NCBI RefSeq assembly: GCF_027579695.1
Contig: NC_083582.1
Coordinates: forward strand, 78,409,727-78,473,726
DNA length: 64,000 nucleotides
Direction of reading: 5' to 3'
From: Neoarius graeffei
Taxonomy: Eukaryota > Chordata > Actinopteri > Siluriformes > Ariidae
A model generated the notes under the pieces. That model was not told the origin of the DNA. It ran no database searches and worked only from the letters and a program-made list of their open reading frames with translations. Shown piece by piece: positions 5,945 through 64,000 of this stretch. Numbering within the stretch: position 1 is the stretch's first letter; each line of letters starts with the position of its first letter. The position numbers were made by a program, and so were the translations under genes.

Positions 5945-7548
5945 TAGTGGTGCTTGAAAGTTTGTGAACCCTTTAGAATTTTCTATATTTCTGCATAAAT
6001 ATGATCAAAAACATCATCAGATTTTCACACAAGTCCTAAAAGTAGATAAAGAGAACCCAGTTAAACAAACGAGACAAAAATATTATACTTGGTCATTTAT
6101 TTATTGAGAAAAATGATCCAATATTACATATCTGTGGGTATGTATGTGAACCTTTGCTTTCAGTATCTGGTGTGACCCCCTTGTGCAGCAATAACTGCAA
6201 GTAAACGTTTCCAGTAACTGTTAATCAGTCCTGAACACCGGCTTGGAGGAATTTTAGCCCGTTCCTCCGGACAGAACAGCTTCAACTGTGGGATGTTGAT
6301 GGGTTTCCTCACATGAACTGCTCGCTTCAGGTCCTTCCACAACATTTCCATTGGATTAAGGTCAGGACTTTGACTTGGCCATTCCAACACATTACCTTTA
6401 TTCTTCTTTAACCATTCTTTGGTAGAACGACTTGTGTGCTTAGGGTCGTTGTCTTGCTGCATGACCCACCTTCTCTTGAGATTCAGTTCATGGACAGATG
6501 TCCTGACATTTTCCTTTAGAATTCGCTGATATAATTCAGAATTTATTGTCCCATCAATGACGGCAAGCCGTCCTGGCCCAGATGCAGCAAAACAGTCCCA
6601 AACCATGATACTACCACCACCATGTTTCACAGATGGGATAAGGTTCTTATGCTGGAATGCAGTGTTTTCCTTTCTCCAAACATAACGCTTCTCATTTAAA
6701 CCAAAAATTTCTATTTTGATCTCATCCATCCACAAAACATTTTTCTAATAGCCTTCTGGCTTGTCCACATGATCTTTAGCAAACTGCAGATGAGCAGCAA
6801 TGTTCTTTTGGAGAGCAGTGGCTTTCTACTTGCAACCCTGCCATGCACACCATTGTTGTTCAGTGTTCTCCTGATGATGGACTCATGAACATTAACCTTA
6901 GCCAATGTGAGAGAGGCCTTCAGTTGCTTAGAAGTTACCCTGGGGTCCTTTGTGACCTCGCCGTCTATTACACACCTTGCTCATGGAGTGATCTTTGTTG
7001 GTCGACCACTCCTGGGTAGGGTAACAGTGGTCTTTAATCTCCTCCATTTGTACACAATCTGTCTGACTGTGGATTGGTGGAGTCCAAACTCTTTAGAGAT
7101 GGTTTTGTAACCTTTTCCAGCCTGATGAGCATCAACAACGCTTTTTCTGAGGTCCTCAGAAATCTCCTTTGTTCATGCCATGATACACTTCCACAAACAT
7201 GTGTTGTGAAGATCAGACTTTGATAGATCCCTGTTCTTTAAATAAAACAGGGTGCCCACTCACACCTGATTGTCATCCCATTGTTTGAAAACACTGGACT
7301 CTAATTTCACCTTCAAATTAACTGCTAATCCTAGAGGGTCACATACTTTTGCCACTCACAGATATGTAATATTGGATCATTTTCCTCAATAAATAAATGA
7401 CCAAGTATAATATTTTTGTCTCATTTGTTTAACTGGGTTCTCTTTATCTACTTTTAGGACTTGTGTGAAAATCTGATGATGTTTTCGGTCATATTTATGC
7501 AGAAATATAGAAAATTCTAAAGGGTTCACAAACTTTCAAGCACCACTG
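5945..7548 (-). mobile_element. Tc1-type DNA transposon, copy 2 (full length, inverted)
   Basis: A 1604-bp element of the same family as copy 1 lies on the opposite strand, with TA at 5943-5944 and 7549-7550. It starts 334 bp after copy 1 ends, so together they form a very large inverted repeat. Termini match copy 1 apart from single-base changes, including the first base of the left end. Confidence 0.97.
6160..7181 (-). pseudogene. Tc1 transposase pseudogene, copy 2
   Basis: The C-terminal 191 codons (6160-6735) are open and hold all three catalytic regions: [18 protein letters not shown] and SPDLNPMEMLW. Upstream, the frame is broken by the same one-base deletion and the same TAG as in copy 1, and codon 3 is TGA. 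The subfamily-specific residues VWDCFAASGPGRLAVIDGTI are also shared with copy 1 and differ from copy 3. It therefore descends from an already broken ancestor or a sister copy. Confidence 0.95.
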
Positions 7549-18236: not shown

Positions 18237-19190
18237 GTTTGCTTCTATGCCGTGACACCCCTCCTGGCCGTTAACAAGGTGTTGTATCTGACCAGGTGGG
18301 TGGAGCACAGAAGCACGGCAGGCCAGAACTGAGTTCTCAAAACTCTTTTATTTTTAAAGATACGGTATATATAGCTTTTCAGCCAGCTGCACCACCAGTG
18401 CACACTCGCTCTCTCACACACACATTTCTGGTCGGGAGAGAGACCTCTTCCTCCGCTCTCCCTCTCCTCTTATAGGGCGCGGTCACTGGGGAAGACACAC
18501 AAACACAGGTTAATTCCCATCAGGTGCAGTGATTCCACTACTTACCTTCCCTGACTCCACCCTCCATTCACAGACTGACACTTGGCCACGCCCCCGCTGC
18601 CACACAAGGGATCTCCAGAGGACCCAGTCCTGTGCTTTTCCCTCTATCTGAGTCCAGGTGTACCCCAGCCTCCTGACGTCTGTCTGGAGATCTCTTTGCC
18701 GGGTGTTCTTTGGCTGACCTCTTCTCCTCTTCTCTTGAGGGTTCCAAGTCAAGGCTTGTCTGGTGATGTTTGTCGCTGGGTTTTCGTAACATGTGCCTGA
18801 TCCATCGCCATCTTCTTCTTCCAATTTCTTCTTCCATTGGTATTTGCTGTGTTTTCAACCAAAGATTGTTGTTACTGATCCTTTCTGGCCAATGTATCTT
18901 CAGGATCGTTCTTAGGCAGTTGTAGATGAAAGTCTGTACTTTATTGATTATGTTCTTTGTCATTCTCCAAGTCTCTGAACCATAAAACAATACTGATTTT
19001 ACATTTGAATTAAATAGCCTTATTTTTGTTTGTTCTTGTAATATACTTGAGCTCCAGATATTTTTGAGCTTTAAAAATGCAATGCTCGCCTTCCTTATTC
19101 TTGCTTTGACATCTGCATCTGTACCACCCTGTTTCTCGATGTTACTCCCCAATATCCGTTTGCAGCTACATTTAATGTTGCACACTTCTG
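18237..19190 (-). pseudogene. LINE ORF2 C-terminal fragment, split by a solo LTR
   Basis: The minus strand reads as the post-RT C-terminal region of a non-LTR retrotransposon: [40 protein letters not shown], then [15 protein letters not shown] and [18 protein letters not shown] across a frameshift near 18800. The ORF tail continues after the LTR to a stop at about 18237. Endonuclease and catalytic RT domains are missing, so it is a 5'-truncated copy. The exact clade is unsure; the FYGSETW and GRPKNT-type motifs occur in several APE-type clades. Confidence 0.85.
18280..18604 (-). mobile_element. Solo LTR (325 bp) with 5-bp target duplication
   Basis: On the minus strand it starts TGTGGCAGCGGGGGCGTGG and ends ACAACA. 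The 5-bp repeat CAAGG lies on both sides (18275-18279, 18605-18609). It contains a TATA-like CTATAAG and a poly(A) signal AATAAA in the right order. Removing LTR plus one duplication restores the LINE frame around it. The same LTR family ends the Ty3/gypsy element at 57208-57520 and forms the inverted pair at 36459-37142. Confidence 0.92.
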
Positions 19191-34484: not shown

Positions 34485-35735
34485 CTACCTCCGGGAGCTA
34501 TACTCTTTCGGGGGTGTCCTCGACCTCTGGGTGCTGGTATGCTGGGCGTGGAAGTCTTGCTTGATCAGAGGGTCGAGGATGTCCTTGGACTTGACCCAAT
34601 TTTGTTCTTCCGACCCATACCCTTCCCAATCTACCAGGTACTCGATCTGGCTGCTTCTTTGCCTGGAGTCGAGGATTTTGTTGACCTGGTAGGTGGGTTC
34701 CCTGTCGAGATTCAGAGAAGGGTGATCTTGAGTGGGTGTGTTGTTGGAGAGTGGACCTGGGATGACAGGTTTGAGATTGGAGACGTGGAAAATGGGAGAG
34801 ACTCTGCTGTGCAGTGGAAGTTCTAGACGATATGAGACATTGTTGATGCACCGTAACACCTTGAAGGGTCCGATGTTGCGTGGTTGTAGTTTCTTACAGG
34901 CATGTGTCTCTCATAGGTTCTTAGTTGCCACCCATACTCGATCACCAGGAAGATAGGTGGGAGTCTGTCCTCTGTGTCGATCGGCATACATCTTGTACTT
35001 GACACAGATGACCTCTAGCCGCTGATGGACCTCTTCCCAAATGGTTTGGCTGCACTGGAACCACTTGTCTACTGCCTGTATCTGATTGGGTGCATCGTCC
35101 CAGGGGAACAAGGGTGGTTGGTAGCTGAGTATGCACTGGAAAGGTGTTAGCTGAGTCGCAGAATGCTTTAGGGAGTTCTGCACATACTCGGCCCATGGCA
35201 GGAAACGTGCCCAGTCCCCCTGGTTGCGCATGCAGTAGATTCACGGGAAACAGCCGATTTCCTGGTTGACCCATTCTACCTGCCCATTGGACTGGGGTGG
35301 TAGCCGGATGTGAGGCTAACGGACACCCCCAATCTCTCCATGAAGCAGGACCAGAACTTGGAGATGAATTGTGGGCCTCAGTCGCTGACGATGTCTTCAG
35401 GGATGCCGTAGTATCGGAATACTTGTTGGAAAAGAAGCTCAGCCATTTGGGTGGCCATAGGGATACCCGGAAGAGGGATGAGCCTCAAGGCTTTCGAGAA
35501 CCGGTCAATGGTGACCATGATTGTGATATTGTTTTGTAATGAAGGAATGTCTGTGATGAAGTCAGTCGCCAAGTGTGACCAGGGTTGCTGCGGGACAGGT
35601 AGTGGCATGAGTTTGCCGGCTGGAGGAGCTCAAGGAACCTTGGCCTGGGCACAGTCGGAACAGGAAGAGATGAGCCAGTTGATTTCGGTCAGCATGTTGT
35701 CCCACCAGTACCTATTCTTCAGTATCTGGTAGGTA
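34485..35735 (-). pseudogene. Chromovirus integrase and chromodomain
   Basis: The integrase would insert the element DNA into chromatin, and the chromodomain would target it to modified histones. Minus-strand pieces in order are: [18 protein letters not shown] with the first catalytic Asp; [30 protein letters not shown] with the second Asp; [13 protein letters not shown]; the C-terminal [11 protein letters not shown]; then [16 protein letters not shown]; and the chromodomain [14 protein letters not shown] with [16 protein letters not shown]. The HHCC zinc region lies just upstream, near 35740-35780. Frame breaks occur near 34910, 35230 and 35380. Non-functional. Confidence 0.92.
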
Positions 35736-35739
35736 CGTT

Positions 35740-36458
35740 AACTGTTGGGGTGACCAGTGACAGGAGAGGAGTGCGCCCAGGTGATGAGTTTGCTGCGTAG
35801 ATGTGCTGGCACAAAGAGAAGACCAGCTGGGATGTGGTTAGGTACAGATTGTGGTTGAGACTTACGGATTTCACTGTCCAGATCCCATGTGATGGATTGT
35901 ACAAAGTGCTGTGTCAGGATGATGGATTGAGGTTCTGTGTCTTTGGGAGATGGTTCTACAGCCTGGGACAAAACATCTGCCTTGGTGTTCTTGGACCCTG
36001 GTCGGAAGGAGATAAAGAAGTTTAAAACGGGTGAAGAACACCACCCACCTGGCCTGACGTGGAGTCAACCTCTTGGCCTTCTTGAGATACTCTAGGTTCT
36101 TATGGTCAGTTAGGATGATGAATGGATGAGTTGCTCCCTCCAACCAGTGTCGCCATTCCTCCAAGGCTAGTTTGATGGCCAGCAGCTCGCGATTGCCCAC
36201 ATTGTCATTCCTCTCGGCAGGGGTTAGCTTCTTGGAGAAGAAAGCCGTTGGGTGTAGTTTCGGCTTTTCCCCAAACAGCTGGGACAAGATGGCTCTGACT
36301 CCTGTGTCAGAGGCATCTACCTCCACGACAAATGGTTTCATGGGGTCTGGATGCTGAAGAATCGGAGCCGACATGAAGGTGGTTTTCAGCTTGGTGAAGG
36401 CTTCTTCTGCCTGAGGATTCCATCAGAGGCACTTGGGACCTTTATTCAGGAGAGTGGT
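35740..36458 (-). pseudogene. Chromovirus RNase H and integrase N-terminus
   Basis: The frame 36374-35871 encodes [19 protein letters not shown] (first RNase H Asp), [20 protein letters not shown] with the catalytic Glu, and [20 protein letters not shown]. The integrase zinc finger follows with WAHSSPVTGHP. One frame shift near 35970 separates the two. The left flank (to 36458) supplies the end of the RT-RNase H linker ([12 protein letters not shown]). Confidence 0.92.
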
Positions 36459-36958
36459 TGTGGCAGCGGGGGCGTGGCCAAGCAGCAGTCTGTGAATGGA
36501 GAGCGGGGTTGGGCAAGGTAAGTGGCTAAGTCATTCCACCTTCTGTCAATTAATATGTGGGTGTGTGTGTCTCTGTTTGTTACAGGGACGGAGCATAAAA
36601 GGGGAGAGAGAGAGCAGAGAAAGGGAGTTCTCTCCCCAACCACAATGCACGTGTGTGAGTGAGTGATGAGAGGAAGCAAGCAAGTTGAAAAGTCCGAATA
36701 AAAGTATTCGTATAAATATCAACTCTCGCCTGCCATGCTTCTGTGCTTCTGGGTTTCGGCACCACTGTAACACTTCCTGATGTGGGTGGAGCACAGAAGC
36801 ACCGCAGGCAAGCGTTGATATTTATACGAATACTTTTATTCGGGCTTTTCAGCTTGCTTGCTTCCTCTCATCACTCACTCACTCACTCACTCACTCACTC
36901 ACTCACTCACATGCATTGTGGTTGGGGAGAGAGCTCCCTTTTTCTGCTCTCTCTCTCA

Positions 36959-36991
<33 letters not shown>

Positions 36992-37142
36992 CTTTTATGC
37001 TCCGTCCTTATAACAAACAGAGACACACACACACACACACACACACATTAATTGACAGCAGGTGGAATGACTTAGCCACTTTCCTTCCCCAACCCCACCC
37101 TCCATTCACAGACTGCTATTTGGCCACACCCCCACTGCCACA
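36459..37142. mobile_element. Palindromic insertion: two LTRs facing each other around a PBS
   Basis: Reading plus, 36459-36747 is an LTR of the TGTGGCAGCGGGGGCG family without its last bases. Reading minus, 37142-36766 is a full LTR ending TGTTACA. Directly after the latter comes GTGGTGCCGAAACCC (36765-36751), placed and worded like a tRNA primer binding site. Thus both outer ends are U3 ends. Flanks are GTGGT and GTGTT, a four-of-five match. Both arms carry TATA-like CATAAAAGG and AATAAA. Confidence 0.88.
36887..37047. repeat. (CTCA)n, (CT)n and (CA)n arrays within one LTR arm
   Basis: Three simple-sequence tracts have expanded in the right arm of the palindrome (36887-36910, 36949-36982, 37022-37047). 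The left arm has only short equivalents, so the arms differ in length by about 90 bp. Confidence 0.9.
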
Positions 37143-37500
37143 GTGTTCAATGGAGCGGCCAAGGTGCTGAAGTTCCTGATGAAACAGTGGTAGAAGTTGG
37201 CAAAACCTAGAAATCTCTGGAGGTCCTTGACTGATTTAGGTTGGGGCCACAAGGTAACAGCTGAGACTTTGAGTCCATGCTGACCCCTTCCCAGCTAATG
37301 ATGTAGCCCAGGAAGGAGATCTTGTCTTGGTGGAATTCGCATTTTTCAGCTTTGACGGAGAGGTGGTTCTCCAGCAACCGTTTGAGGACAGTTCTGACAT
37401 GGCCCTGATGACTGGGGAAATCTGAGGAATAGATCAAGATGCCATCTATGTAGGCAATGACTTATTTTCCCAGCATGTCCCACAGCACGTCATTGATGAA
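37143..37500 (-). pseudogene. Chromovirus reverse transcriptase fragment
   Basis: The minus strand reads CLFQSFINDVLWDMLGK, then [12 protein letters not shown] (the YxDD box with the second Asp changed to Gly), then [20 protein letters not shown] and FLGYIIS. These are the palm end, thumb and connection of RT. Everything upstream is deleted up to the LTR. A stop in the palm region and the YIDG change make it inactive. Confidence 0.9.
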
Positions 37501-52845: not shown

Positions 52846-55704
52846 CTCGTTTTCATTTGTCTGGCAGCTCCATCCTCAACATTCTCCTTTCCACATGCTC
52901 TGCATCTCTTCTCAGGATGTGCCCATACCATCTCAGTCTCATCTCTCTTAGCTTAATTCCCAAGCTCTCCACATGTGCTGTCCCTCTGATGTGCTCGTTC
53001 CTTATCCTGTCCAACCTTGTCACTCCCATCGCAAACCTTAACATCCTCAACTCCGCCACCTCCAACTTTGCCTCCTGTCTCTTCATTAAGGGTACGGTCT
53101 CCAATCCATACATCACAGCTGGTCTCACTACTGTCTTATACATCTTACCTTTCACTTCTGCTGGGACTTTCCGATCACAAATGACTCCCAAAATCCTTCT
53201 CCAACTGCTCCACCCTTCCTGCACTCTCTTTCTCACCTCACTATCGCAGCCCCCATTTTCCTGCACAGTTGACCCCAGGTACTTGAATTCACCAACTTTC
53301 TTTACGTCTACTCCTTGCATCTTCACTACACTCTCATCCCCATTCTCATTGATGTACATGTATTCTGTTTTGCTACTGCTCACCTTCATTCCTCTTCATT
53401 CCAATGCATCCCTCCATCTCTCCAAACCCAACTCAACTTCCTTTCTACTTTCACCACATATCACAATATCATCTGCAAACATCATGTTCCATGGTGACTC
53501 TTGCCTCACTTCGTCCGTCAAGCTATCCATCACTATGGCAAACAAAAAAGGACTCAAAGCAGATCCTTGATGGAGTCCCACCTTCACCTTGAACCATTCA
53601 GTCATTCCAACTGCACACCTCACTGCTGTTTCACTGTTCTCATACATGTCTTGCACCACTCTAATATACTTCTCATTCACTCCACTCTTTCTCATACAAT
53701 ACCATAACTCATCTCTCGGCACTCTATCGTATGCCTTCTCCAGTTCTACAAACACACAATGTAGCTTTCCTGTACTTCTCCATTAACATTCTTAAAGCAA
53801 AAATTGCATCCAACGTGCTCTTCCTTGGCATAAACCCGTACTGCTGTTCACAGATTGCTACCTCTCTTCTCAATCTCACCTCCAATACCCTTTCCCATAG
53901 CTTCATGCTGTGGCTCATCAGTTTTATTCCTCTGTAATTACTGCAGCTCTGTACATCTCCCTTATTCTTGTATATTGGGACTAGCACACTCTCCATTCAT
54001 TTGGCATTTTCTCATTCTCTAGGATCTTATTAAACAATCTCGTTAGGAACTCCACAGCCATCTCACCCAAACATTTCCAAGCCTCAATCTGGATACCATC
54101 TGGTCCGACTGCTTTCCCAGTCTTCATTCTTTTCATGGCTGCCCTCACCTCATCCTTACTAACCAACTCTGCTTCCTGATTTGCTGTCTCCAATGAATCT
54201 GACCTTTTCTCTCTTGGATTCTCTTCTTTTAATAAATCCTCAAAGTACTCTTTCCACCTTCTTAATACACTCTCTTTGTTTGTCAGCATATTTCCATTTA
54301 CATCTTTCATCACTCTTACTTGCTGTACATCCCTCACTTCCCTGTTTCTCTGCCTAGCTAGTCTGTACAGGTCTTTCTTTCCTTCTTTGGTCTCCAGTCT
54401 TTTGTACAACTCCTGGTATGCATCTGCTTTCGGCTTCGCTACAGCTCTTTTTGCCTTCTGTCTCATCTCTCTGTATAACCCCCTGCTTTCCTTGTCTCTC
54501 TGCTCATCCCAATTCTTCTTTGCTAGCCTCTTCTCTTTTATAATTTCCTGCACTTCTTTGTCCCACCACCATGTCTCCTTGTCTTCCTTCCTCCTTCCCG
54601 ATGACCACCCTAGCACCTTCCTTGCTGCCTCTCTTACTTGTACAGCAGTAGTATTCCAATCTTCTGGCAGACTTCCATGACCACTCAATGCTCGTCTCAT
54701 TTCTTCCCTAAACTCCTTCTGATGTTCAACCTCTTTTAGTTTCCACCACTTAATCTTCGGCTCCACTATTTCACGCTTCCTCTTTTTCACTTTCAATCTC
54801 ATCCTGCACACGACCACTTGATGTCTAGCTACACTCTCCCCTGCCAACATTTTACAGTCTCCAATCTCCTTCAGGTTACCCCTTCTGCAGAGTATGTAGT
54901 CCACCTGTGTAGATCTTCCTCCACTCTTAAACGTCAGCCTGTGCTGCTCTTTCTTCTCGAAGTATGTATTGACTATTGCCAAATTCACCCTCTTTGAAAA
55001 ATCAACCACCATTTGCCCTTCCACATTTCTCTCTCTTACACCATATCTGCCCATCACATCCTCATCCCCTCTGTTTCCCTCACCAGCATGTCCGTTGAAA
55101 TCTGCTCCTATCAGCACATGCTCCTCCCTCGGAATACTTTCTACCACTTAATCCATCTTTTCCCAGAAAGACTCTCTCTTCATTCTCACATCCAACCTAT
55201 GGGGCATATGCACACAGCATTGATTACCGCTCCTTGAATCTCCAACTTCATGCCCATCACTCTATCTGACACCCTCTTCACATCAATCACACTGTTGACC
55301 AACTCTCCCCTCAAAACAATACCAACACCATTTCTCTTTCCATCGACTCCATAATAAAACAACTTGCATCCATCTCCAATGTTCTTGGCCTTGCTTCCTT
55401 TCCACCTCGTCTCCTGCACACACAAAATGTCCAACTTCCTTCTTTCCATCATACCTGATAACTCTCTCGCTCTGCCAGTCAATGTTCCCACATTCAGTGT
55501 TCCTACCCTCAATTCTAAGCTCCTTCCCTTCCATCTTTCACGCTCTCTCCTAACATGCCTCCCCCCTTTCTTTCTCCTTCTCCATTTTGGCACAACAGTA
55601 GCACACTTTCCACCAGCACCCTGTTGACCAACAGTACCAGAGGCGGTTGTTCTTAACCCGGGCCCTGGCCGATCTGGTATGGTATTTCTCTTTTCATTCC
55701 ACAT
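52846..55704 (-). pseudogene. RTE ORF: APE endonuclease plus reverse transcriptase, lightly damaged
   Basis: The polyprotein nicks target DNA and reverse transcribes element RNA. Segments: VGTLNVGTLTGRARELSGMM and ILCVQETRWKGSKA (APE Glu) in 55704-55186; VLIGADFNGHAGEGNRG, STQVDYILCRRG and GKAVGPDGIQIEAWK in a 388-codon frame 55147-53981; LVPIYKNKGDVQSCSNYRGI and QYGFMPRKST; VELEKAYDRVPRDELWY (RT motif A); GSALSPFLFAIVMD; WNMMFADDIVICGES (FADD, 53485); EFKYLGSTVQENGGCDSE and LRWYGHILRRDAEHVERRML. Only about four frame breaks or stops occur, so this is the youngest-looking LINE here. Confidence 0.95.
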
Positions 55705-55904
55705 GTTAGAATTGGCACAGTTTTATGCTGGATGCCCTTCCTGACGCAACCCTCTCCAATTTATCCAGGCTTGGGACTGGCACCAAGAGTACACTTATGC
55801 ACCCCCAGTGGCTGGATTTATACGGTGATCTAAGTAATTTGTCTAAAATCAGTCCTGTATCACAGGTCACATGCTTGTACTTTCTTGTACTTGGTAAGGT
55901 CTTC

Positions 55905-57207: not shown

Positions 57208-57520
57208 TGTAGAAACGTTCTGGATGTGGGTGGAGCACAGAAGTATGGCAGGCTGTTATTTGCTTCTGAGTTTTCTTTATTTCTGCTTTTCAGCACAACT
57301 CTGTCCCTTGGGGACAAACTCATACACACAGACTATCATTGTGTTCTGGTCCCCAATCTCCCTTCCTCTATTCCTCTCACTCCTTTTCTAGGGCAGACTC
57401 ACTGTAAGAGACACACAAACACACGTTAATTGACAACAAGTGTAGCGATACGACCACTCACCTTCCCCAACTCTGCCCCCCATTCACAGACTGATGCTGG
57501 GCCACGCTCCCGCTGCCACA
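57208..57520 (-). repeat. 3' LTR of the Gmr1-like element (313 bp)
   Basis: On the minus strand it runs TGTGGCAGCGGGAGCGTGG to CTACA, with a poly(A) signal AATAAAG. It starts right after CCATGGGGGTA, a polypurine tract. It is the same family as the solo LTR at 18280-18604 and the arms at 36459-37142. Confidence 0.9.
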
Positions 57521-57534
57521 TACCCCCATGGACC

Positions 57535-57890
57535 ACCTTGAATTTGAATGGCTGGAGGGCAAGATACCAACGGGTGATCTGTGCGTTGGCATCCTTCATG
57601 CGGTGGAGCCACTGGAGGGGCACGTGGTCCAAACAGAGGGTGAAAGGGCATCCCAGCAGGTAGTACCGAGGGTGAGGACTGCCCACTTGATGGCTAGGCA
57701 CTCTTTCTGTATTGTGCTGTACCTGCCTTCCCATATTGACAGCTTCCGGCTAATGTACAGCACAGGACGTTCCTCCCCCTCCACCTTCTGGGACAGAACG
57801 GCCCCCAGTCCTCTGTCCGATGCGTCCGTCTGTAAAATAAAGGGGAGAGAAAAGTCAGGGGAGTGTAACAGTGGCCCCCCCACACAGTGC
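57535..57890 (-). pseudogene. Gmr1-like RNase H
   Basis: Minus-strand frames read LQTDASDRGLGAVLSQ (first catalytic Asp), ERPVLYISRKLSIWEGRYST and KECLAIKWAVLTL (catalytic Glu), then HVPLQWLHRMKDANAQITRW and LQPFKFKVVH. A frameshift occurs near 57655. After KVVH the frame passes into the LTR, so the C-terminal end appears deleted up to the polypurine tract. Confidence 0.9.
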
Positions 57891-57900
57891 AGCCTTTACC

Positions 57901-58287
57901 CTAGAGAAAGCCTGTTGGCATTGCCGTCCACTGGACCGGATCTGATGCTCCCTTTTTAGTGAGATCAGTCAGTGGGCTGGTGATGTCTGAATAATTAGGT
58001 ATGAACCTACGATAGTATCCAGCCAGCCCCAGGAACTGTCTCACCCCCTTTATGGTCTTGGGCCTCGGGCAGGCCGCAATCGCTGCTGTCTTATTGATTT
58101 GGGGACGCACCTACCCATGGCCCAAGTGGAAACCCAGATACCGTACTTCCACCTGCCCAATTGCACACTTCTTTGGGTTAGCTGTGAGACCTGCATGCCT
58201 CAGCGACTTTAGGATGGCCCTAAGGTGTTCGAGGTGCCGCGGCCAATCATTGCTCTAGGTGATATCATCGAGATATGCAGCTGCATA
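57901..58287 (-). pseudogene. Gmr1-like RT, second half
   Basis: The minus strand starts at the catalytic box AYLDDI (58280), continues with HLEHLRAILKSLRHAGLT and KCAIGQVEVRYLGFHLG, then IKGVRQFLGLAGYYRRFIPN and SPLTDLTKKGA. These are palm end, thumb and connection. Stops lie after the YLDD box and near 58113. The upstream half continues at 61038 beyond two insertions. Confidence 0.92.
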
Positions 58288-59894
58288 CAGTGGTGCTTGA
58301 AAGTTTGTGAACCCTTTAGAATTTCCTATATTTCTGCATAAATATGAACTAAAACATCATCATATTGTCACACAAGTCCTAAAAGTAGATAAAGAGAACC
58401 CAGTTAAACAAATGAGACAAAAATATTATACTTGGTCATTTATTTATTGAGGAAAATGATCCAATATTACATATGTGAGTGGCAAAAGTATGTGAACCTC
58501 TAGGATTAGCAGTTAATTTGAAGGTGAAATTAGAGTCAGGTGTTTTCAATCAATGGGACGACAATCAGGTGTGAGTGGGCACCCTGTTTTATTTAAAGAA
58601 CAGGGATCTATCAAAGTCTGATCTTCACAACACATGTTTGTGGAAGTGTATCATGACACGAACAAAGGAGATTTCTGAGGACCTCAGAAAAAGCATTGCT
58701 GATGCTCATCAGGCTGGAAAAGGTTACAAAACCATCTCTAAAGAGTTTGGACTCCACCAATCCACAGTCAGACAGATTGTGTACAAATGGAGGAAATTCA
58801 AGACCATTGTTACCCTCCCCTGGAGTGGTCGACCAACAAAGATCACTCCATGAGCAAGGTGTGTAATAGTCGGCGAGGTCACAAAGGACCCCAGGGTAAC
58901 TTCTAAGCAACTGAAGACCTCTCTCACATTAACATTAGCCAATGTTCATGAGTCCACCATCAGGAGAACACTGAACAACAATGGTGTGCATGGCAGGGTT
59001 GCAAGGAGAAAGCCACTGCTCTCCATAAAGAACATTGCTGCTCATCTGCAGTTTGCTAAAGATCATGTGGACAAGCCAGAAGGCTACTGGAAAATGTTTT
59101 GTGGACAAATGAGATCAAAATAGAACTTTTTGGTTTCAATGAGAAGCGTTATGTTTGGAGAAAGGAAAGCACTGCATTCCAACATAAGAACCTTATCCTT
59201 TCTGTGAAACATGGTGGTGGTAGTATCATGGTTTGGGCCTGTTTTGCTGCATCTGGGCCAGGATGGTTTGCCATCATTGTTGGAATAATGAATTCTGAAT
59301 TATACCAGCAAATTCTAAAGGAAAATATCAGGACATCTGTCCATGAACTAAATCTCAAGAGAAGGTGAGTCATGCAGCAAGACAGCAACCCTAAGCATAC
59401 AAGTCATTCTACCAAAGAATGGTTAAAGAAGAATGAAGTTAATGTTTTGGAATGGCCAAGTCAAAGTCCTGACCTTAATCCAATCGAAATGTTGTGGAAG
59501 GACCTGAAGCGAGCAGTTCATGTGAGGAAACCCACCAACATCCCAGAGTTGAAGCTGTTCTGTATGGAGGAACGGGCTAAAATTCCTCCAAGCCGGTGTG
59601 CAGGACTGATCAACAGTTACCGCAAACGTTTATTTGCAGTTATTGCTGCACAAGGGGGTCACACCAGATACTGAACGCAAAGGTTCACATACTTTTGCCA
59701 CTCACAGATATGTAATATTGGATCATTTTCCTCAATAAATAAATGACCAAGTATAATATTTTTGTCTCATTTGTTTAACTGGCTTCTCTTTATCTACTTT
59801 TAGGACTTGTGTGAAAATCCGATGATGTTTTAGGTCATATTTATGCAGAAATATAGAAAATTCTAAAGGGTTCACAAACTTTCAAGCACCACTG
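58288..59894 (+). mobile_element. Tc1-type DNA transposon, copy 4
   Basis: A 1607-bp element with TA at 58286-58287 and 59895-59896, inserted in the RT of the Gmr1-like element a few codons before its YLDD box. Confidence 0.97.
58653..59674 (+). pseudogene. Tc1 transposase pseudogene, copy 4
   Basis: Unlike copies 1-3, codons 1-5 read MTRTK, so the early TGA is absent. Helix-turn-helix text is intact to KITP, where AGA has become TGA (58851). A one-base loss near 59093, Asp to Asn at the first catalytic site (WTNEIKIELFG) and TGA near 59368 follow. QQDSNPKHTS has also lost the second Asp. SPDLNPIEMLW keeps the Glu. It was independently inactivated. Confidence 0.95.
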
Positions 59895-59908
59895 TAGGTG
59901 GTGTGGGG

Positions 59909-61037
59909 AAAAGACTGCGGAATGCATTTGAACAAGGGGGGGCCACAATCGCAAGAGGGTGTCACCGAAATGTTAGGTCGGACATGATGCATATAGGCTA
60001 CCTTATACACGGACACGCACGTAATGCTATCAGTCATGACAGCCAGCACAGAACCGCGCAGATTAAAATGCACAAGAAAAGCACCTCGGTGGTCGGTGGT
60101 AACTCAACTTAAACTGCTTGCTTGTACCAGTACTAAAGCACTATAGATAGAAACACTGAACACAGAGAAGTGCACTCGGCGGTGCTCGGTCAGAGGAAAG
60201 TATGGGAATATGCCTGCAGTTTTGTCAGAGCTGCGTGTGTGTCCGCGCGCGCGAGTGCGCGTCTGTGTGTGTGCGTGTGTGTGTGTGTGTGTGCGTTTCC
60301 ACAATATGCCAGCACATAACTGCGCAGAATAAAATGCCAAAACAGCCAACATTAATAACCCCAGCATCAGTTATGACTTTAGTCCACAATATGCCAGCAC
60401 AGAAGTGCGCAGAATAAACTGCCAAAACAGCCAGCAGCACAGAAGGCTATACATAGATTAATCCATTGGTCATGACTTTAGCCCACAACATGCCAGCACA
60501 TAACTGCGCAGAATAAAATGCTAAGACAGCTAACAGTACACAACAAAAACACCTCGGTAGTAGGCTAACTCAACTTAAACAACTCTTGTATCAGTACCAA
60601 TGCAGTATAGAAACATTGAAAACAGAGGAAGCAGTGCACTCGGCGGTGCTAATAGAAGTAACCAATGACTTACCCTTAAAACTTCCCAAAGGCCTGCCTG
60701 CATCTGTCATTGGCCTGCACACTACAAACAATGATGTCTACTACCACAATCACAACTTCCGTGTGGTGTTTTTTCAGCGCTGCACTGTGCTGTGTACATT
60801 TTGCAACATTTCACGCACGACGTATACACGTTGCTCAACGTCAAAAAATATTGGTTTAGGAAATGTTTAAGCAAATGTTTGATTAAATTACAGCATGGGT
60901 TGGGTTTAAGTTCAATTTTGTCGACATGTTTTGAGTTGAAAAACACTCGCAGGCCAACATTTTATTTTTTTTTAAAATAATTTTCAAAAAGTTACCCAGG
61001 CCACGGCCCCCCTGGCCTGGGCGGTTCCGCGGTCTAT
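59909..61037. mobile_element. Unclassified TIR element with 9-bp target duplication
   Basis: GGTGTGGGG flanks it (59900-59908, 61038-61046). The ends AAAGACTGCGGAA and (inverse) ATAGACCGCGGAA are short imperfect inverted repeats. The interior has a (GT)n array and an internal duplication (60036-60190 versus 60490-60650). The duplication length fits Mutator-like elements or hAT with one extra matching G. No transposase was found. Confidence 0.7.
60030..60650. repeat. Internal repeats and (GT)n in the unclassified element
   Basis: The words CAACTTAAAC, ATAGAAACA and GTGCACTCGGCGGTGCT occur in the same order at 60086-60190 and 60553-60650. A unit with CCACAATATGCCAGCACA and TGCGCAGAATAAA recurs at about 60298, 60390 and 60485. 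A (GT)n tract lies at 60232-60296. Confidence 0.8.
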
Positions 61038-61430
61038 GGTGTGGGGTCAGAGAACCCTGTCCATGAACCGCTGGAATGTCACGGGAGCCACAAATAACCC
61101 AAAAAGAAGTGTGATGAACTGGTGTAAGCCAAACGGTATGGAAAAGGCTGTTTTCCCTTGGGATAGAGGAGTCAAGGGGATCTGCCAATATCCCTTTGTC
61201 AAATCCAGTGTCAAATAAAAACGAGCCGTGCCTAATCGATCGAGCAGCTTGTCAATGCGAGGCATTGGGTATGCGTCAAATTTAGACACTGCGTTGACTT
61301 TTCTATAGTCCACACAGAACTGGACCGACCCATCCTTCTTGGGGACCAGGACCACTGGGCTGCACCAGTCACTGTGGGACTCCTCGATTATGCCCATTTT
61401 GAGCATGGCCTTGAGTTCATCCCTGACCAC
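61038..61430 (-). pseudogene. Gmr1-like RT, first half
   Basis: The minus strand reads VRDELKAMLKMGIIEES, SDWCSPVVLVPKKDGSVQF, VDYRKVNAVSKFDAYPMPRI, ARFYLTLDLTKGYWQIPL (first catalytic Asp) and FGLFVAPVTFQRFMDRVL. It is one open frame of 127 codons, then a stop just before the 9-bp duplication of the next insertion. Confidence 0.95.
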
Positions 61431-62100
61431 CTTTTTTTGTGTTCGGGCAGGCGGTAAGGGCAGCTGTGCACTACCACCCCCGGGGGCGTCTCATTGTGGT
61501 GTTCTATGAGGTGGGTGTGGCTGGGCAGGGGCGAAAACACATCAGAAAATTCGTTCTGCAACTGGGCTACCTCTGTGAGTTGGGCCGGGGAGAGATGGTC
61601 TCCACAAGGGACTGGAGTGGTTGGCGATGTCAATTTTCTTTTTTGAACCTCCGGCCCCAGCTCCGCCTTCTCCGGGATTACTGACACCAACGCCACAGGG
61701 AGCTCCTCATTCCAACGTTTTAACAGATTGAGGTGGTAAATTTGCAATGCCCCACCCCTGTCTATTCGTCTCACCTCATAGTCGACGTCCCCAGCTCGCC
61801 GTATGACCTCGAAGGGCCCTTGCCACTTGGCGATCAATTTGGAGCTTGACATGGGCAATAATACGAGTACTTTGTCCCCCAGTGTGAACTCTCTAAGGCA
61901 CGTTCCCCTGTCATACAGTTGGATTTGATGTTCTTGCGCCTGCTGCAAATTCTCCTGGGTTAAGTGTGTGAGTGTGTGGAGTTTTGTGTGCAGGTCGAGA
62001 ACGTATTGAATTTTGTTCTTACTCGATGAAGGTCCCTCCTCCCAATTTTCACGCAGCACGTCCAAAATGCCACGCGGCTTACGCCCATATAATAATTAAA
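61388..62100 (-). pseudogene. Integrase C-terminus fused to RT N-terminus in one frame
   Basis: A 225-codon frame. Residues 58-100 hold the integrase C-terminal domain (REFTLGDKVLVLLP and AKWQGPFEVIRRAGDVDYEV, a GPF/Y-type motif), residues 100-125 the tail IYHLNLLKRWNEE, and residues 159-210 the RT approach (QLQNEFSDVFSPLPSHTHLI and PYRLPEHKK). Because both parts are in one uninterrupted frame, the order is original and not a rearrangement. A one-base shift separates it from the next RT frame. Confidence 0.93.
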
Positions 62101-62121
62101 ACGGTGAAGAACCTGTGGAGG

Positions 62122-62349
62122 TGTTAGGGTCCAACCCAGTCTGAACAGTCCTTATTTCTCGAGACCCCCGATGCCTTTGTGCCCCTCGGATCCGGGACAA
62201 AATACCGTGAGAGAAACAGACCAGGAAAACCAGAAAGGTTTCACAGCCAGTTTATTCACAGTCACTTTGTCGAAATGAAAACATTTTTGAAAACATTTTA
62301 TAGCATCCATTTATCTCTGTGTTTATGTTTTGTCTACATATGTACGCAA

Positions 62350-62394
<45 letters not shown>

Positions 62395-63500
62395 GTCAGC
62401 CTATGACATCAGCTATGTTCGTCTCCTCACTTGCGTGCAATTGAGGGGACCTTGATCTGGAAATAATAATAATAATCTCCATCAGTATGTGTGTATAAAT
62501 CTTGAATCAATCATAATATAATAACATTTCTGATCATATGACATGATAGCAAGGTACAGACAGATTTTAAAGGTCTCTGCTTACGTACACCCCTTCAGGT
62601 CAGATATAACATAGGGCATGGAATTTTTAAACACAGATAATATGTCTAGTCTACGAAGTCTATTCAAAGAAGGTCAAATACATCAGAAATTAATGAGTTT
62701 ACACAGAAAAGGATCTAATAGCTAACATATTAAAACCATAATTTCTTAACACATGAATGTGTGCTAAGTCAGTAAATTACATCTTGATTTCATCAATATA
62801 TATAGTAAGACAATCATAAGCAAAATAACAAATAACAATATGTCTTTAACAATGTTAAAACAAAGAATGTTATAAGAAAGTAAACAAAAAAATAAGAACA
62901 AACTTAAACAAGAAAGTCATACGAAACATAAGAAAAATGAGAATATGTCTGGCAAACCAACTAACAGGATTCAGAATTAAACTCATAACAAAAACCAAAA
63001 ACTAAATTAGTTTAATGCTTTTAAACTAAAAACCTTATAATCATAAAGTCTTAACAACCCTAAATTATATTCTGTAATTATAAAACTAACTTAAAACTAT
63101 AAAACTAACATTAATCACTAAATGCAGCTTTAATTCTACCATTCAATCATTTCAACTTCAGATACAACATTAAAGAAGCTGGTTTACTCGAACACTCTTA
63201 AATCACAATCCTAGCTATAAAACTAAGTTGAATCATGGCTTTAAATTTAACCTTTAATCCCTATGTAGCTGCGAGTGTGTGTGGGTCGATCTGACATCAA
63301 AACAGACCTTGGCGGATCTTTCAGACACATCTCTGATCAAAAATACACATTTCATATCAAAATAAACAAAATGTTCCCAAGCAATGTCCAGCCGAGACAT
63401 AAGGTCATTTCAACTAATAATATAATTTTGTCACAAAATAATTTGCTAACTTCTTGGCCAAGAATTAATAAACCTACATATAATAAAACCTAACCTAACA
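62122..63500 (-). mobile_element. Solo LTR, 1379 bp, with 5-bp target duplication
   Basis: The plus strand starts TGTTAGGGTCCAACCC and ends CCTAACCTAACA. GGAGG lies on both sides (62117-62121, 63501-63505). Read minus, a poly(A) signal (GAATAAACTGG near 62255) is close to the 3' end, so it is probably a minus-strand LTR. It carries a (GT)n array at 62352-62391 and is very AT-rich. It interrupts the Gmr1-like integrase. It has no coding content and no relation to the other LTRs. Confidence 0.85.
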
Positions 63501-63910
63501 GGAGGCTTGCGGTACCTCTTGTACTGCAAATAACAGGGGCTCGAGCCACTTTTCCCAATTACGTGCGTCTTCACTTACGAACTTCCAAATTATGTTTTTG
63601 AGAGTTCGATTAAAATGTTCCACTAAGCCATCAGTTTGTGGGTGATAGACACTGGTGCAGATAGGCTTAATCCCCAGTAACCCATACAGTTTGCGCAGTG
63701 TGCATGACATAAATGTAGTGCCTTGGTCTGTCAGGATTTCTTTCGGAATCTCGACCCGGGAGATAAAGCGGAAGAGCACTTCCGCAATACTGTGTGCTGA
63801 GATATTGCGGCGAAGCACTGCTTCTGGATATCGCGTTGCATAGTCCACCAGAGCTAAACTAAAGCGATATCCCCATGCTGACCGATCTAATGGCCCGGAG
63901 TTGTGCAAAG
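63501..63910 (-). pseudogene. Gmr1-like integrase core
   Basis: The minus strand reads GPLDRSAWGYRFSLALVDYA, IPKEILTDQGTTFMSC (second catalytic Asp), YHPQTDGLVEHFNRTLK (catalytic Glu) and WEKWLEPLLFAVQEVPQ. The first catalytic Asp would lie just before GPL and is not preserved. Upstream sequence (63911-64000) no longer matches integrase, so a deletion or another insertion begins there. Confidence 0.93.
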
Positions 63911-64000
63911 AAATGCTGTAAAATAAAGATTCCTTTATCTTTATAAATGTTTCTACATAAAAAAAAAAAAAATCTGTAAAGTGTAGTAAACAGTAATAAG

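Follow-up and report, generated by a model that had tools for sequence, protein, structure and literature searches.

The window analysed here, a stretch of 64,000 nucleotides from the ariid catfish Neoarius graeffei, carries on its minus strand, from 63897 to 57208, an integrase core, an integrase C-terminal domain, a reverse transcriptase (RT), an RNase H and a 3′ LTR in succession (Table 1). Pfam matched rve in the frame at 63495-63995(-) (E 9e-09), Integrase_p58_C at residues 93-127 of the frame at 61388-62095(-) (9.9e-10), RVT_1 at 61047-61490(-) (3.2e-14), RT_RNaseH_2 at 57596-57895(-) (2.7e-23) and RT_RNaseH at 57426-57749(-) (4.6e-08). No Pfam match was returned for the RT N-terminal stretch of the fused frame, which was identified from matching database proteins that extend into RT, or for the frame at 57901-58110(-), which aligns with the RT tail in other copies. 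A single frame joining the integrase C-terminal domain to the RT N-terminus had been proposed at 62065-61388; the fusion was confirmed and the frame corrected to 62095-61388. RT, RNase H and LTR follow in the order originally predicted, with the RT core in phase 2 relative to the fused open reading frame (ORF).

Table 1. Parts of the integrase-first element, its later insertions and the neighbouring chromovirus, in window positions.
Feature	Position	Strand	Evidence
Integrase core (rve)	63501..63897	-	Pfam and similarity to complete relative L052, starting at 63897
Later insertion, 1379-bp solo LTR, TGTTAG..CTAACA, 5-bp duplication CCTCC	62122..63500		Sequence comparison
Integrase C-terminal domain (GPF/p58_C type), then RT N-terminus, single open frame	61388..62095	-	ORF list, Pfam, genome matches
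RT core frame (RVT_1), phase offset relative to fused frame	61047..61490	-	Pfam
Later insertion, about 1.1 kb, between CCCCACACCA repeats	59909..61036		Boundaries by eye
Later insertion, Tc1-type DNA transposon	58286..59896	+	Domain search, end comparison
RT C-terminal part and connection	57901..58285	-	57901-58110 by match to copies; remainder by eye
RNase H	57521..57895	-	Pfam
3′ LTR, 313 bp, TG..CA	57208..57520	-	Sequence and similarity to L052
Chromovirus RT tail	37270-37145	-	Sequence match
Chromovirus RNase H	36422-35871	-	Domain search
Chromovirus integrase C-terminal SH3 and chromodomain	34910-34485	-	Domain search

The window copy is damaged, with no 5′ part in the stretch examined and with later insertions and stops in its remainder. 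Its similarity to the complete relative L052 stops at 63897 rather than at the originally predicted element boundary of 63910, and about 100 bp upstream of the LTR are missing relative to L052. The window LTR starts TGTGGCAGCGGGAGCG; the LTR sequence first reported, TGTGGCAGCGGGGGCG, belongs instead to the start of L052. The 6.7 kb past the similarity break (L051, L053) yielded neither gag nor protease nor an integrase N-terminal part, and the same query pieces strongly detect three other copies, so the window copy is either truncated there or interrupted by something longer. Among the insertions, the solo LTR sits within the integrase, and the Tc1-type element has matching 20-base ends with a transposase domain on the plus strand. 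The insert of about 1.1 kb in RT is bordered on both sides by a 10-bp direct repeat and has short imperfect inverted ends, all seen by eye, together with internal repeats detected by sequence comparison; it is possibly a non-autonomous DNA transposon.

The order of domains across the genome was investigated with the 235-aa fused frame as query, the best candidates alone being scored, so that the match count is a lower bound. All 150 scored matches (at least 150, the window included) start at residue 1 or 2 of the query and reach residue 226 or beyond. In 30 loci that were cut out (L009-L038, the first being the window copy, and L038 occupying the same place as L052 and counted once with it), the best matches placed integrase core, integrase C-terminal part, RT N-terminal part and RT in that order in every case; RNase H lay downstream within the stretch in 26 of them, with none in L009, L018, L020 and L021. 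L031 additionally carries an inverted integrase piece. A Neoarius graeffei database protein, P0011, runs from integrase core to RT in a single frame of 358 residues, and each of its 114 scored genome matches covers at least residues 5-346, some with internal stops; the match on contig C5 is at 100%. The fused frame also found 288 database proteins, and among the best 120 of these an integrase part was present in 118, an RT part in 71 and both in 69; integrase came first in 68 of these 69, with one exception. One protein with both parts, from cod (Gadus morhua; P0020), aligns with 94% of the query at 57% identity. As comparators, L049 and L054 have the order protease, RT, RNase H, integrase. 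L049 came from a first comparison set of 20 loci found by an RVT_1 search (L001-L008, L039-L050, some at shared places), and it alone among them matched the window RT pieces at 1e-4 and was kept for comparison. Among the copies examined, none of the window element's family has RT before integrase. The integrase-first order is family-wide and not an accident of the broken window copy. That the in-frame fusion excludes later shuffling, as had been argued, is less well proved by one copy than was claimed; the many copies make the point.

L052, a complete relative of 4960 bp, begins TGTGGCAGCGGGGGCG, ends GCTACA and is flanked on both sides by AGGTC, a 5-bp target duplication. Its LTRs (1939-2259 and 6574-6898) are 98.46% identical over 325 columns. 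Directly after the first LTR lies GTGGTGCCGAAACCCGGGA, the primer site, and a gene with a 3′ end complementary to it was found by pattern in the same genome and identified by ARAGORN as tRNA-Phe. Pfam domains follow in the order SCAN, zinc knuckle, aspartyl protease, H2C2, rve, Integrase_p58_C, RVT_1 and RNase H, the SCAN domain of gag (PF02023) scoring 6.9e-22 and the zinc knuckle weakly, at 0.0014, under its cut-off. The gag, primer-site and LTR-pair evidence all comes from this single copy. Pfam found no chromodomain in the frames of the window element or in L052; no copia-type RT model was listed for either, RVT_1 and gypsy-type RNase H being matched instead. These results bear on an alternative in which two adjacent or nested elements of standard order lie side by side, the integrase end of one happening to precede the RT of the other. 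The window does contain nested insertions, and the 5′ part of its copy was not found, as such an arrangement would allow; the junction, however, is one open frame that recurs in 150 of 150 scored matches, database proteins likewise have it in one frame, and in L052 two LTRs enclose a single integrase-then-RT set. On the strength of the one-frame junction, its recurrence and the two-LTR copy, the alternative of standard-order elements in tandem or nested was rejected, and we regard its probability as very small.

The preferred reading, a single element with integrase ahead of RT, leaves the frame offset to be considered. The phase offset of 2 seen in the window separates the two parts in 29 of the 30 loci, and L052 has overlapping reading frames, one of 1109 aa and one of 451 aa. 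Both observations would fit a subfamily in which a programmed frameshift close to the RT N-terminus divides gag-protease-integrase from RT-RNase H. The figure of 29, however, arose partly because the offset tail was included in the fused-frame query, which thereby favoured offset copies: none of its 150 scored matches lay in an open frame of at least 1300 aa. With the integrase part as the sole query, 18 of 150 did (17 in open frames of 1305-1513 aa and one more of 2570 aa). The four long-frame copies examined in part (L061-L064) all lack the offset. A tree of 34 copies, 29 with the offset and 5 without, intermingles both states and requires 5 changes between them, and some copy pairs are 97 to 99% identical yet of opposite state. 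A frameshifting subfamily is given very little chance, and the offset was dropped as a family trait, since single-frame copies exist and are intermingled with offset ones. An adenine run was seen by eye in the window sequence; we infer that the offset reflects recurrent slips in this run rather than a device of a subfamily.

Trees of RT (27 rows) and integrase (30 rows) both put the window copy with its genomic relatives and keep rows labelled integrase-first apart from RT-first rows, with support of 98 (starred) for RT and 92 (unstarred) for integrase, the RT-first rows numbering only 3 and 2, respectively, on long branches. For the integrase tree the tool warned of long branches meeting. Database rows were labelled integrase-first on the assumption that matching the fused query implies this order. 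Because of the few RT-first rows, the long branches and this assumed order, the trees agree with the integrase-first reading but do not carry it.

A chromovirus of standard order, also predicted originally, is indeed present on the minus strand of the window, as an RT tail, an RNase H and an integrase SH3 with chromodomain; the frames scanned yielded neither its RT core nor its integrase core. Inserted in it, at 36459-37142, are two Gmr1-type LTRs in head-to-head orientation (inverted identity 73% across 751 columns), with a copy of the primer site between them and flanking 5-mers, GTGGT and GTGTT, that differ by one base. A possible origin of this double LTR is aberrant reverse transcription, with insertion of the product through two U3 ends. 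With no more than 3 mismatches allowed, the motif at its junction occurs 691 times in the genome, counting the window, and 6 of these occurrences are exact. No inverted repeat was found within 1001 bases at any of five other motif sites examined (3 exact, 2 with one mismatch), and an amplified palindromic family was therefore not supported. The empty-site test of the double LTR gave no long open frame. Elsewhere in the window, a fragment at 18458-18604 is 78% identical to the window's Gmr1-type LTR, and long frames at 53981-55722, on the minus strand, resemble LINE endonuclease and reverse transcriptase by eye. The second RT-first comparator, L054 (G000:C3:60907700-60911900), encodes protease, RT, RNase H and an integrase with a weak MLV-type C-terminus in one frame of 1207 aa; many matches in its search list have frames of 1205 or 1207 aa, L054 alone having been examined, and it may belong to an endogenous retrovirus-like family.

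From the life cycle of LTR retrotransposons in general, an intact member of the family would be transcribed from its 5′ LTR and translated as a Gag-Pol polyprotein, which its own protease would cleave, releasing integrase from between protease and RT. Reverse transcription would then be primed by tRNA-Phe inside capsids, and the product would be inserted by the element's own integrase. The integrase-first order would shift the positions of cleavage sites and leave the steps of the cycle unchanged. The window copy cannot pass through such a cycle: the stretch examined has neither gag nor protease nor the integrase N-terminus, and insertions split what is left.

The Gmr1-like clade was reportedly first described by Goodwin and Poulter in 2002, going by the title of their paper, which PMC3587641 cites. 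According to excerpts of PMC8220671, PMC2774666 and PMC3587641, Gmr1-like elements are gypsy elements with integrase ahead of RT, and passages of PMC3424704 and PMC4592553 trace the SCAN domain to Gmr1-like gag or note its resemblance to it. The family has integrase upstream of RT within pol and an RT and RNase H of Ty3/gypsy type (RVT_1, RT_RNaseH_2, RT_RNaseH). L052 adds a gag with a SCAN-like capsid domain, LTRs, a primer site and a short target duplication; the window copy is without gag and has a 3′ LTR only. A chromodomain after integrase, the mark of chromoviruses, was not found, nor was the copia-type RT that marks Ty1/copia. The best solved structures by sequence were a Ty3-type RT and yeast Ty3, and among the names of the database matches listed none says Gmr1. 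The placement rests on marks in published descriptions of the clade rather than on a labelled Gmr1 sequence. An alternative, in which a standard-order element was privately rearranged and arrived at the copia-like order independently of Gmr1, we consider very improbable, given that the Gadus morhua protein shares the fused arrangement at 57% identity and that the L052 gag has the SCAN-type domain that parts of PMC3424704 and PMC4592553 report for Gmr1-like elements. The original prediction of a Gmr1-like element with copia-like pol order is thus supported by 30 of 30 loci, 114 of 114 P0011 matches, the SCAN domain of L052 and the trees. Taken together, these data make it almost certain that the window element is a damaged copy, lacking its 5′ part, of a many-copy Gmr1-like Ty3/gypsy family of Neoarius graeffei.

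An integrase-first order noticed by eye has thus been confirmed computationally as real and family-wide. Integrase before RT is already known as the published mark of the Gmr1-like group, and a many-copy catfish family joining that group adds a host rather than a principle. The group has a wider interest in that, according to excerpts of PMC3424704 and PMC4592553, the vertebrate SCAN domain arose from its gag. It is possible, and suggested here only tentatively, that Neoarius graeffei carries a very large and recent integrase-first Gmr1-like expansion with many single-frame copies; if so, it would offer a natural system for how a gypsy integrase leaves from between protease and RT. A search for Neoarius graeffei together with retrotransposon found no publication; mostly without subscription papers, it says little about the wider literature.

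Compared with known systems, the element shares with Ty1/copia the pol order of integrase before RT (parts of PMC8220671 and PMC2774666), whereas its RT and RNase H match gypsy-type models. Ty3/gypsy RNase H and integrase C-terminal domains are common to the element and to chromoviruses, including that of this window (about 34485-37270); in chromoviruses, unlike here, integrase comes last and is followed by a chromodomain. The Gmr1-like clade is resembled in integrase before RT, in gypsy-type RT and RNase H and, in L052, in a SCAN-like gag domain; the difference is that the host here is an ariid catfish, and the likeness is one by description. A frog has about 200 copies of Gmr1-like elements, according to a passage of PMC4131045. 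In Tetraodontiformes, the available text of PMC11117352 describes four such elements, Gmr1 to Gmr4, with LTRs of 337-518 bp, a single gag-pol frame of 1506-1634 aa and a length of 6058-6465 bp; beside these, L052 is shorter, at 4960 bp, and the likeness lies in its LTRs of about 320 bp and in the open frames of 1305-1513 aa found in 17 of 150 matches.
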